Source: Chlorogloea sp. CCALA 695 (GTDB lineage: Bacteria; Cyanobacteriota; Cyanobacteriia; Cyanobacteriales; Chroococcidiopsidaceae). Taken from it: a stretch of DNA of 64,000 nucleotides. The notes beneath the pieces are model-generated. The model did not search any database. It saw only the letters and a program-made list of their open reading frames with translations, and was not told the DNA's origin. The number at the start of each line of letters is the position of its first letter. Positions within the stretch are counted from its first letter, which is position 1. Location: NCBI RefSeq assembly GCF_003003885.1, contig NZ_PVWN01000002.1:124001-188000 (forward strand), given 5' to 3'. Shown here piece after piece: positions 46,277-50,753 of the stretch. The position numbers and the translations under genes are program-made.

Positions 46277-46552
46277 ATGGCTAAAATATTTACGATTACT
46301 CTTTCCGATGATTTAGAGCAGGCATTAACCGCCCAAGCAGAACGCTTAAACAAGTCTTTAGAGGAAATCGTGTTACAAGTCCTATCACAGCAGTTAACAA
46401 CTTTACTGCCATCTAACTCAGTACCAAAAGTAGAAACAGACCCACTTTTAAGACTAATTGGTTCTCTCAGTGTAGATGTTCCCGATTTAGCCGAGAATCA
46501 TGACTACTATATTGGACAATCTCTTTGTCAGGAATTAAAAAGGGATGAGTAG
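46277..46552 (+). CDS. Antitoxin of a VapBC-like pair
   Basis: A 91-residue protein that opens with MAKIFTITLSDDLEQALTAQAERLNKSLEEI, a ribbon-helix-helix style DNA-binding N-terminus. The C-terminus (SLSVDVPDLAENHDYYIGQSLCQEL) should wrap around the toxin. It overlaps the PIN gene by 8 bp. It would form an autorepressed pair, with the 10-bp inverted repeat upstream as a possible operator. Confidence 0.75.
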   Translation: MAKIFTITLSDDLEQALTAQAERLNKSLEEIVLQVLSQQLTTLLPSNSVPKVETDPLLRLIGSLSVDVPDLAENHDYYIGQSLCQELKRDE

Positions 46553-46961
46553 TTTGTTTGTTGATACGTCCGGTTGGGCAAGTCTTTTTGTTAACACTCA
46601 ACCTTACTATCCACAAGCAGAGCAATATTTTCGTTTAGCGGTTCAACAACAAACAAAAATTTGTACGACAAATTATGTAATTACTGAATTGGTAGCATTA
46701 TTAAATAGCCCACTGCGGGTTGAGCGATCGCGGATATTTGAAATTGTTGATGCGATTAAAACAGTTGCTTATGTTGAGGTTATTCATATTGATGATGTAA
46801 CAGATGCTCTAGCTTGGAAACCATGCAAAAGTAGAGTAGACAAAGCTTGGTCTTTGGTTGACTGTACATCTTTCATTGTGATGAAACATAAAGGTTGTCA
46901 AGAGGCGTTGACCACTGACCGACATTTTGAGCAAGCAGGTTTTATCCGTTTACTCAAGTGA
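46545..46961 (+). CDS. vapC: PIN-domain toxin (VapC-like)
   Basis: A 138-residue PIN-domain ribonuclease. The acidic residues of the active site are visible: Asp7 in FVDTSGW, Glu48 in VITELVALL, Asp106 in SLVDCTSF and Asp125 in TTDRHF. VapC toxins cleave tRNA or rRNA. The antitoxin gene overlaps by 8 bp. The pair is bracketed by direct repeats at 46177 and 46986. Confidence 0.88.
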   Translation: MSSLFVDTSGWASLFVNTQPYYPQAEQYFRLAVQQQTKICTTNYVITELVALLNSPLRVERSRIFEIVDAIKTVAYVEVIHIDDVTDALAWKPCKSRVDKAWSLVDCTSFIVMKHKGCQEALTTDRHFEQAGFIRLLK

Positions 46962-47078: not shown

Positions 47079-47776
47079 ATGTCACTCTATGACGTAATTG
47101 GGAAAAGCTACGCCCAAACGAGAAGAAGCGATCCACGTATTACTGAAAAATTACTAGAAATTCTTGCACCCTCCCAGGCTGCGACCATTGCAGATATTGG
47201 TGCTGGTACAGGTTCTTACGCACTTGTTTTAGCTGAGTGTGGATATCGTGTTTTTGCAATTGAGCCGTCAGCGACGATGCGAAGGCAGGCGAAGTCTCAT
47301 CCTGCCATTCAATGGATAGATGCTTTTGCTGACAACTTACCTTTGCCAGACGGCTCGGTAGATGCAGCCATTATTATGCTGGCTTTCCACCACTTCCAGG
47401 ATTATCGGCAAGCGTTGCGTGAAATCCATAGGATCGCAGGTGATGGAAAAATTGTTCTGTTCACTTACGATCCAGAAAAAATCTCAAGTTTTTGGTTGAC
47501 GCAATATTTTCCCTCACTTGTAGCAGATGTACAGGCTACATTTCTGACTATTCCAAGATTAATATTTGAAATTGAGGCGATCGCAAATGTTGCCGTAAAT
47601 GTAGTTAAGTTTCCTTTACCTAATGACTTGTCGGACTCGTTTGCAGCCGTTGGCTGGGCAAGACCAGAACTTTACCTTAATAGCGATATTCGCAATGGAA
47701 TTTCATCGTTTGCAAACATTGCTGAGAATGAGCTAAATCAAGGTTTAGCGAATTTATATAAGGATTTAGAAACAGG
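47079..47776 (+). CDS. Class I SAM methyltransferase, exon 1 (split by a group II intron)
   Basis: The 5' part (232 codons plus two bases, GG) of a class I methyltransferase. SAM-binding motif ADIGAGTGSYALVLAECG, then FAIEPSATMRRQAK and the LPDGSVDAAIIMLAFHHFQD motif, all in the first 125 residues. The frame stays open to a TAA at 47807 but those last codons (CDSLVSKSR) lie in the intron. Joining 47776 to 49976 gives GGA (Gly) and then VWDRKHGHLRQQ, the C-terminus typical of the family. The spliced protein would have 259 residues. It follows a TA module and its substrate is unknown. Confidence 0.88.
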
Positions 47777-49975
47777 GTGCGATTCGTTGGTTAGCAAATC
47801 GCGGTAATCAGTCCGTACATAACTAACCCAGCCAAGACTCCCAAGTCTAGCTGAACTCTCAGATTGATGTAGGTGAAAGTCCTACCCACCAGGTTCAGGT
47901 GTGACTCCTTACCTTGCCCCTACCGAACAAGCTCGATTCTTGTAGAGTAAAGCGGGGAACAGGGCGCAATCAGACAATCGTTATGGATTGACACTGGCGC
48001 TAACAGGGAGTTCTTATGGAGAAACCGAGCCTATAAAAGTGACCCACTATAACAGCAGGGCATAACATAATCAACCCAGATTATCCCTGACTGCATCAGA
48101 GCTAAAACCTACTGCATGACTTGTTGATAGCAGTCTGAACCCAGGGTTTCTGATGGTCAAATTGGCTACTCCTAACAGGACAAAACAATCATCTGAGGGA
48201 ACGAATAAAAACGAATCAAAGGTCTAGGGACGGTCGAGTCCCAAGTAGGTAAGACGAGATACAGAATCCCTCTGATTCGGGTAGGATGCGGCGTAATTGC
48301 CGCAAGATATTCAGAAGACACTTTACGGAGTACGAGCATGATTAGGCACAGCGACAACGCTAGTGAATCTTGGAGGACCTTACCCTGGAAGCAATTCCGG
48401 CGTAATCTATTCCGCCTACAAAAGAGAGTGTACAAAGCAGTTCAAGCAGGAGACAAGCGCAAAGCAATGTCCCTTCAAAAACTTATTCTGAAGTCCAAAG
48501 CGGCTAGATTACTGGCAATCCGTCAAGTAACTCAGCTAAACGCTGGTAAGAAAACGGCAGGTATCGACGGCAAGAAATTCCTCACCTTTGAGGAACGCTT
48601 CAAGCTAGAGAAACTGCTGAAGGCATTGAGTAACAACTGGAAACACCAGAAATTGCGTAGTATTCCCATCCCAAAAAAGGACGGAAGTACCAGAATGCTA
48701 AAAATCCCCACTATCGCGGACAGAGCTTGGCAATGCCTCGCCAAATACGCCTTAGAACCAGCACACGAAGCAACTTTCCATGCTAGGAGCTATGGGTTCA
48801 GACCAGGACGTTCGGCACATGATGCCCAAAGAATCCTATTCGCAAATCTAAACTCCGGTGTAAATGGAATCAATAAAAGAGTCATAGAACTTGACATTGA
48901 AAAATGCTTCGATAGGATAAGCCATACAACCATAATGGACAACCTTATTGCCACTCGTGGCATCAAATCAGGAATATTCCGATGCTTAAAAGCCGGGGTA
49001 AATCCTGAATTTCCAGAACAAGGAACGCCACAAGGTGGTGTGGTAAGCCCCCTATTAGCCAATGTCGCACTCAACGGAATCGAAAAAATCCATAGATACA
49101 AAAGTACAAGTGGAGAGTACGTAGAACCATCAATCCGATATGCGGATGACATGGTAATAATACTTCGTCCCCAAGAGAACGCGACAGAGATACTTGAAAG
49201 AATTAGTCAGTTTTTAGCCGCCAGAGGAATGAAAGTAAGCGAAAAGAAGACAAAGATAACCGCTACGACAGAGGGTTTTGACTTCCTTGGTTGGCATTTC
49301 AAAGTGCAAAACAACGGAAAATTTAGAAGCACCCCCTCAGTGGATAACTTCAAGAAATTCCGTCAGAAGATAAAAGCAATCGTCAACTGCTCGAACTATG
49401 GCGCGAAGGTCAAGGCTATGAAATTAGCCCCCATCGTTAGAGGCTGGAGAAATTACCATAAATTCTGTAAGATGGACGGGTCGCGTTTTTCGCTATACCT
49501 CACTCAAAACAGAGCCTTCAGGGTATTTAACAAGGAACCCAAGCAAGACCGTCATTCTAGTAAGAAATTATTAGACATGGCATTCCCTTCGGTTCCTTAC
49601 TCCGAATTCAAATTCTTCAACGTTAAAGGCAATAAATCACCTTACGACGGAGATATAACGTACTGGAGCGAACGCAACAGTAAGTTATACGACAATCACA
49701 CCTCTAAAGCCTTAAAACGGCAAAACCACACGTGCGGACATTGCGGTATGAAGTGCATTAGCGATGAGCAAGTACAACTACACCACATTGACGGGAATCA
49801 TAGCAACTGGAAGATCAAAAATCTAATTGCCGTACACGAATCTTGTCACGATTACGTCCACATGGGCAAAAGGGAACAACAACCCTAAGAATATCTGGGA
49901 GCCGGATGAGGCGAAAGTTTCACGTCCGGCTTTGTAGGAGAGGTGCGGGGTGCAATAGCCCCCATCGACTCTAAC
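47777..49975 (+). mobile_element. Complete group II intron with reverse transcriptase ORF
   Basis: The 5' end is GTGCG followed by a 6-bp stem (GCGATT / AATCGC, 47779-47784 with 47797-47802). Domain V is the 34-nt element at 49899-49932 with a GAAA tetraloop and the AGC triad at 49900-49902. Domain VI (about 49937-49971) has an unpaired A at 49968, seven bases before the 3' end, which is AC. The ORF sits between, in domain IV. Exon 1 ends AACAGG; CTTGTT at 48120-48125 can pair with it and is a candidate EBS1. The boundaries restore the methyltransferase frame exactly, so it is full length and probably splices. Confidence 0.9.
48338..49888 (+). CDS. ltrA: Group II intron reverse transcriptase/maturase with HNH endonuclease
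   Basis: A 516-residue intron-encoded protein. Reverse transcriptase motifs: GIDGKKF (near 75), ELDIEKCFDRI (near 185), GTPQGGVVSPLLANV (near 229) and the catalytic YADD at 268-271. The maturase X domain covers about 330-430. The C-terminal HNH domain (about 460-510) has two CxxC motifs, CGHCG and the E-S-C-H region, with HHIDGNHSN. It promotes splicing and retrohoming by reverse splicing into DNA. All key residues are intact. Ends 11 bp before domain V. Confidence 0.94.
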   Translation: MIRHSDNASESWRTLPWKQFRRNLFRLQKRVYKAVQAGDKRKAMSLQKLILKSKAARLLAIRQVTQLNAGKKTAGIDGKKFLTFEERFKLEKLLKALSNNWKHQKLRSIPIPKKDGSTRMLKIPTIADRAWQCLAKYALEPAHEATFHARSYGFRPGRSAHDAQRILFANLNSGVNGINKRVIELDIEKCFDRISHTTIMDNLIATRGIKSGIFRCLKAGVNPEFPEQGTPQGGVVSPLLANVALNGIEKIHRYKSTSGEYVEPSIRYADDMVIILRPQENATEILERISQFLAARGMKVSEKKTKITATTEGFDFLGWHFKVQNNGKFRSTPSVDNFKKFRQKIKAIVNCSNYGAKVKAMKLAPIVRGWRNYHKFCKMDGSRFSLYLTQNRAFRVFNKEPKQDRHSSKKLLDMAFPSVPYSEFKFFNVKGNKSPYDGDITYWSERNSKLYDNHTSKALKRQNHTCGHCGMKCISDEQVQLHHIDGNHSNWKIKNLIAVHESCHDYVHMGKREQQP

Positions 49976-50057
49976 AGTTTGGGATCGAAAACATGGGCAT
50001 TTACGTCAACAAGAACAGTATGATGTAGGTTATCGTTTTGTCTACACTGCCGTTTAA
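49976..50057 (+). CDS. Class I SAM methyltransferase, exon 2
   Basis: The 3' exon, starting with the third base of a Gly codon. It reads GVWDRKHGHLRQQEQYDVGY, then RFVYTAV and TAA at 50055-50057. GHLRQQxxYDVGYRF is the end of this SAM methyltransferase family (same family as exon 1 at 47079). It has no start codon of its own and too few codons to be an independent gene. The frame match across the intron is exact. Confidence 0.85.
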
Positions 50058-50262: not shown

Positions 50263-50493
50263 ATGTCTTCCTCTGCCATTACCACAATTGTCAAAATGGT
50301 TGAATCTTTACCAGATGATTTGCAAGAGCAAGTTGCGGAGCATATTCGTGAATATATTATCGATTTGGAAGATGAAGCACGGTGGGAGTCTTCATTTAAA
50401 AAGTCACAGGATAAGTTAGTGACCGCCGCCCGGCAAGCAAAACAAGAAATCGCTGAAGGTCGATCGATGCCGATGGATTATAAGCAGTTATGA
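50263..50493 (+). CDS. Antitoxin partner of a RelE-like toxin
   Basis: A 76-residue, charged helical protein (VKMVESLPDDLQEQVAEHIREYI, then ARQAKQEIAEGRSMPMDYKQL). The end matches antitoxins that pair with ParE/RelE-type toxins, in which the C-terminal helix and tail contact the toxin. The toxin gene starts within its last 4 bp. It lies downstream of the intron-split methyltransferase. Confidence 0.75.
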   Translation: MSSSAITTIVKMVESLPDDLQEQVAEHIREYIIDLEDEARWESSFKKSQDKLVTAARQAKQEIAEGRSMPMDYKQL

Positions 50494-50753
50494 AGTCGGC
50501 TACCCTGCCATCTTTTTGGGTTGAATATAGACAACTGAGCAATTCGGTCAGAAAGGGAGCGCGAAAAGCCTATCAGCTTTGGGCAGAAAATCCGTTTCAT
50601 CCATCTTTACATTTTAAATGTATCAATAGTGAGGAAGGAATTTGGTCAGTTCGGGTAACACTTAGCTATCGCGCAATTGGAATTCTAGAAGGTGATACAG
50701 TGACGTGGTTTTGGATCGGTAGCCATGATGATTATGAGCGATTCTACTCTTAA
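50490..50753 (+). CDS. RelE/ParE-superfamily toxin
   Basis: An 87-residue protein with the RelE-like fold: N-terminal helices (FWVEYRQLSNSVRKGARKAYQLW), then the strand FKCINSEEGIWSVRVTLSYRAIGILEG and WFWIGSHDDYERF at the C-terminus. The pattern WSVR-x-YRAI and the terminal SHDDYER are usual for RelE toxins that cleave mRNA at the ribosome. Four-base overlap with the antitoxin gene. Confidence 0.8.
   Translation: MKSATLPSFWVEYRQLSNSVRKGARKAYQLWAENPFHPSLHFKCINSEEGIWSVRVTLSYRAIGILEGDTVTWFWIGSHDDYERFYS

Follow-up and report, generated by a model that had tools for sequence, protein, structure and literature searches.

In bacteria, group II introns are mostly found outside conserved genes. This had also been stated in the initial annotation of the locus described here, and it holds in general, but not for cyanobacteria, which are the stated exception (PMC4424553). 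In Trichodesmium erythraeum many group II introns are located in protein genes, with in vivo splicing documented for 17 of them. Ten introns of this organism lack an ORF, trans-acting maturases have been reported, and an in-gene twintron was in 2015 termed the only bacterial case (Pfreundt and Hess, 2015; PMC4649490). The TeI3/TeI4 introns of Thermosynechococcus elongatus have spread by changes of their EBS and form twintrons; they belong to class IIB1, with EcI5 (class CL/IIB1) being their nearest relative (Mohr et al., 2010; PMC2882425). Most of their copies are found in non-coding DNA, and their twintrons do not lie in ORFs (PMC4649490).

The intron analyzed here lies in a window of 64,000 nucleotides, the whole stretch of DNA that was analyzed, from the cyanobacterium Chlorogloea sp. 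CCALA 695 (coordinates are positions in this window, and all tabulated intron and gene features are on its forward strand). This genome resembles that of Trichodesmium in containing multiple in-gene group II introns and one in-gene twintron. It differs in that splicing was demonstrated by experiment there and is predicted from sequence here, in that the window intron carries an intact maturase and in its other host genes. With T. elongatus it shares a cyanobacterial intron family showing EBS divergence and twintrons, and the best solved relative of the intron-encoded protein (IEP) is 6me0 (E 5.5e-70), which we take to be the TeI4h protein of T. elongatus. Unlike in that species, however, several genes are split. 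Further cyanobacterial relatives (Nostoc, Anabaena, Scytonema, Coleofasciculus and others) encode an IEP that is 74-85% identical to that of the window and share the GTGCGATTCGTT start, the EBS positions and the IEP architecture. The window case thus belongs to a kind already known in cyanobacteria, and the genome-wide intron load and the in-gene twintron are more interesting than the single insertion. With bacterial group II introns being rare in conserved genes, six coding sequences split here by one lineage would allow a common control of several host genes by one maturase to be tested, and intronless relatives of the same genus are natural controls for how a bacterium tolerates such insertions.

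Results

The window contains a complete group II intron of 2199 nt (47777-49975) inside a gene for a SAM-dependent methyltransferase and in sense orientation to it, and its boundaries were confirmed to the nucleotide. In a genome of the same genus (G005, locus L047) the gene is uninterrupted, and its alignment with the joined exons of the window has 282 of 294 nt identical and no gap across 47776|49976. As this empty site aligns gap-free across the junction, both splice sites are fixed to the base. It confirms both the GTGCG at the 5′ splice site (47777-47781), where GTGCGATTCGTT is invariant in 22 related introns, and the AC at the 3′ end (49974-49975). Domain V (49899-49932) and the bulged branch-point A of domain VI (49968; position by homology) were placed by alignment to the Rfam model RF00029, which matches 49897-49975 with 56.6 bits (E 1.8e-8; gathering score 40). 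The start, domain V, the branch-point A and the AC end had all been given at these coordinates in the initial annotation and are present as described; the covariance match, covering the 3′ part of the intron and ending exactly on 49975, agrees with it as well. A search for the intron in phage records gave no match.

Domain IV, which separates the 5′ ribozyme region from domain V, encodes an intact reverse transcriptase/maturase of 516 aa (48338-49888) with RVT_N, RVT_1 and GIIM domains. The model for group II reverse transcriptases/maturases, TIGR04416, is passed narrowly (301.4 bits vs. a cut-off of 300). The C-terminus of the IEP contains an HNH-type endonuclease motif (49733-49861), with two weak Pfam HNH matches (E 0.0014 and 0.0069) that are both below the curated cut-offs.

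Pairing between intron and exon was analyzed in a sample of 80 loci from other cyanobacteria, taken out of 306 relatives, plus the copies of the own genome. In an unbiased scan every intron column was compared with the final bases of the exon for complementarity, which yielded a single partner for IBS1 (intron positions 344-349) and a single one for IBS2 (271-275), with runners-up being about 10 times weaker. In the window, EBS1 (CTTGTT, 48120-48125; observed 0.785 vs. expected 0.279) forms all six pairs, one of them G.U, with IBS1 (AACAGG, 47771-47776; exon positions -6 to -1). EBS2 (CTATA, 48047-48051; observed 0.817 vs. expected 0.278) forms four of five pairs with IBS2 (TTTAG, 47765-47769; exon positions -12 to -8), for which covariation was found in 69 introns. 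With G.U counted, EBS1 pairs with its own exon at 348 of 390 positions, compared to a shuffle mean of 164 (SD 9.4), and EBS2 at 308 of 345 positions, compared to 145 (SD 9.1). Within the family, pairing is therefore about 18-20 SD above that with shuffled partners (65-69 introns). These counts are based on per-sequence pairing, as in a second alignment of 36 sequences the EBS columns were a few positions off. A hand-picked candidate for EBS2 near a CTAAAACC motif (48102) was given up in favour of the one that the unbiased scan had located. A search for EBS3/IBS3 by covariation with exon position +1 in 36 introns gave no column that stood out, +1 being C in 28 of them. The stretch that precedes the intron ORF (47777-48337) has, in 22 introns, a consensus fold of 145 pairs, with compensatory changes seen at 89, and the window intron keeps 142 of the 145; the assignment of this region to ribozyme domains I-III was made by position and not with a domain-level model.

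Exon 1 of the host gene (47079-47776) consists of 232 codons and two further bases, and exon 2 (49976-50057) supplies the one base missing from the divided Gly codon, followed by 26 terminal codons and the stop. The insertion point therefore lies within a Gly codon, 27 codons before the gene end. Joining 47776 to 49976 gives a protein of 259 aa with its stop codon ending at 50057, whereas the unspliced reading frame stops after 242 aa. The spliced product is predicted to be a class I SAM-dependent methyltransferase: it contains PF08241 (Methyltransf_11; E 2.9e-19) at residues 39-126, within exon 1, matches the solved structure 3EGE over residues 1-258 (E 6.8e-69), and is 97% identical over the same residues to the G005 protein. 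A C-terminal block, G.W..KYG....DVGYRF, is present in all 11 aligned relatives and in 3EGE. Because this block, encoded behind the intron, is conserved in them, a natural end of the protein near residue 232 is not to be expected, and the intact relatives indeed continue to residue 255-258 of the spliced protein, with none of them naturally ending near 232. The earlier proposal that the frame is restored at Gly and that the intron hides a last exon is thus borne out by G005, the 11 relatives and 3EGE alike.

At E 1e-40 the methyltransferase gene was found in 25 of the 245 genomes of the order, the own genome included. Among these matches only one besides that of the window is cut near residue 228-230 (G062, see below). 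A second copy of the gene in the own genome, searched for at E 1e-30, gave no match. Upstream of the gene lies a toxin-antitoxin-like ribbon-helix-helix/PIN pair (46277-46961), and downstream of it a ParE-like toxin with a small partner (50263-50753), also toxin-antitoxin-like.

In the own genome (5.23 Mb, 168 contigs) the group II family is matched 34 times, and 5′ ends of the window intron's type are readable at 23 sites, the one in the window included. Many contigs start or stop within an intron, and the exons of a gene are therefore often found on separate contigs; split exons were paired through the intact genes of relatives. Exact junctions were obtained for a Crp-type regulator (C128; intact relatives L219 and L222), a helicase-like P-loop protein (C143; L217), the ketopantoate reductase PanE (C39 and C117; L210 and L220) and a protein of about 590 aa, split 7 codons before its stop (C109 and C154; L187 and L188). 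Another gene is split near its end (C56 and C152), and a membrane protein gene is split, with an exact junction, within its stop codon, TA|A (C7 and C151; L198 and L199). In total, six genes, including that of the window, are split within the coding sequence, plus one at the stop codon. Two more genes are cut within coding sequence (C91 and C18), with their second halves not located. Crp and PanE were named by Pfam, the helicase and the membrane protein by the look of their sequences (P-loop and hydrophobic stretches, respectively). In the Crp-type regulator, PanE and the helicase the frames are kept across the insertions. As the intron in the membrane protein gene begins with G, its unspliced frame still reads TAG (L141/L161; C7:1470 and C151:37729). 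An apparent bias of the insertions towards gene 3′ ends was noted but is not put forward as a result, as the 5′-exon search favoured such cases.

The helicase gene contains a twintron (L157; C143:29520-33918, reverse strand). Its host intron of 2155 nt encodes an IEP of 510 aa and is interrupted after position 190 by a nested intron of 2244 nt with an IEP of 522 aa. Excising both of them restores the open frame seen in L217.

Discussion

Taken together, the sequence evidence makes it very probable that a mobile group II intron was inserted into the methyltransferase gene by EBS pairing and is spliced with maturase help, restoring the 259-aa methyltransferase. The intron would have entered the sense strand of the gene by retrohoming or retrotransposition, with EBS1 and EBS2 pairing with the exon. 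In the transcript, the intron RNA would fold with the aid of its own maturase or of a related maturase of the genome, the same EBS-IBS pairs would select the exon, and the intron would splice out. Unspliced RNA would instead yield the 242-aa protein, which lacks the conserved C-terminal DVGYRF block. We infer splicing in vivo, a lack of activity in the shortened protein and an expression of the gene that is limited by the maturase.

Restoration of the frame is by itself weak evidence for this, because precise reverse splicing always yields a frame at insertion. Accordingly, ORF continuity across the junction was in 36 full-length related introns no better than for mispaired exons, and it was dropped as evidence in favour of the empty sites in relatives. 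The main competing explanation is that the gene is in effect inactivated, with the intron splicing poorly and the gene being a young pseudogene or giving rise only to the truncated protein. The exons differ from the intronless gene of G005 at only about 3% of their bases, a distance at which decay would not yet be visible, and the absence of the methyltransferase from many genomes of the order indicates that it is dispensable at that scale. A further point in favour of inactivation comes from G062, a genome of the same order but of another family, whose homologue (L223; 49% identical) is interrupted by an intron of this lineage, located a few codons upstream of where the window intron lies. 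This intron (RF00029 55.1 bits) encodes an intact IEP of 508 aa, and two extra bases put the joined exons out of the homologous frame. The cut of this homologue near residue 228 is hence due to the intron and does not represent a natural end, and the case shows that insertions of this lineage can persist in broken genes.

In the window, however, ribozyme, EBS/IBS pairs and maturase are all intact, and the split gene contains neither a stop nor a frameshift. Exon 2 differs from that of the relative by six synonymous and one nonsynonymous substitution. Since the split from G005, eight synonymous and six nonsynonymous changes fall on the intron-bearing branch and seven and five, respectively, on the intronless one, so that a nonsynonymous excess is absent from the former; this assignment is based on three intronless outgroups and on a small sample. 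The split gene thus shows no sign of relaxed constraint or decay, as far as can be read from these substitutions. The insertion may be recent, and at an exon divergence of about 3% purifying selection after insertion is not datable. The same genome has introns in the genes for the Crp-type regulator, PanE and the helicase, with the frames kept in all three. Overall, inactivation of the methyltransferase gene appears unlikely.

It is considerably less probable that the shortened 242-aa protein is functional and that the intron merely substitutes its C-terminus. The location of the SAM-binding domain within exon 1 speaks for this idea, but the intact relatives extend to residue 255-258 with the DVGYRF block, which the 3EGE chain, matching over its full length, has as well. 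An assembly artefact, with intron and gene wrongly joined, can practically be dismissed. Many intron copies do coincide with breaks in the draft assembly, but the one in the window lies well inside its contig, which is at least 188 kb long. Its divergence from each of the other long copies found is about 12% or more, and both of its flanks match the relative's gene exactly.

If the intron is spliced with maturase help, as favoured here, dependence of methyltransferase expression on the maturase, which the initial annotation had considered, is plausible. It is probably a shared dependence, as at least two further intact related maturases are encoded in the genome that could act in trans, making it unlikely that the dependence is private to the window intron. 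A more speculative extension, which we regard as possible but rather doubtful, is that a small pool of trans-acting maturases sets the output of several unrelated split genes (methyltransferase, Crp-type regulator, PanE, helicase and others), including the helicase gene, which would need two-step twintron splicing.

Going by the statement made in 2015 (PMC4649490), bacteria would with the helicase twintron have a second in-gene case after that of Trichodesmium. In the literature from 2016 on, titles and abstracts among the matches listed mention no bacterial in-gene twintron. Nesting was also observed elsewhere in the genome, with copies of the window-type intron holding other group II introns on four contigs (L159, L160, L162 and L165 on C107, C42, C109 and C25). 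Several of the nested introns are located in the reverse transcriptase coding sequence, for example at about intron position 1380 beside the YADD codons, at 1123-1125 and at 1675. Finally, a further copy of the intron probably interrupts a LAGLIDADG-type gene (L145 and L162; C107:74885 and C109:894), whose two parts agree in phase (1/1).
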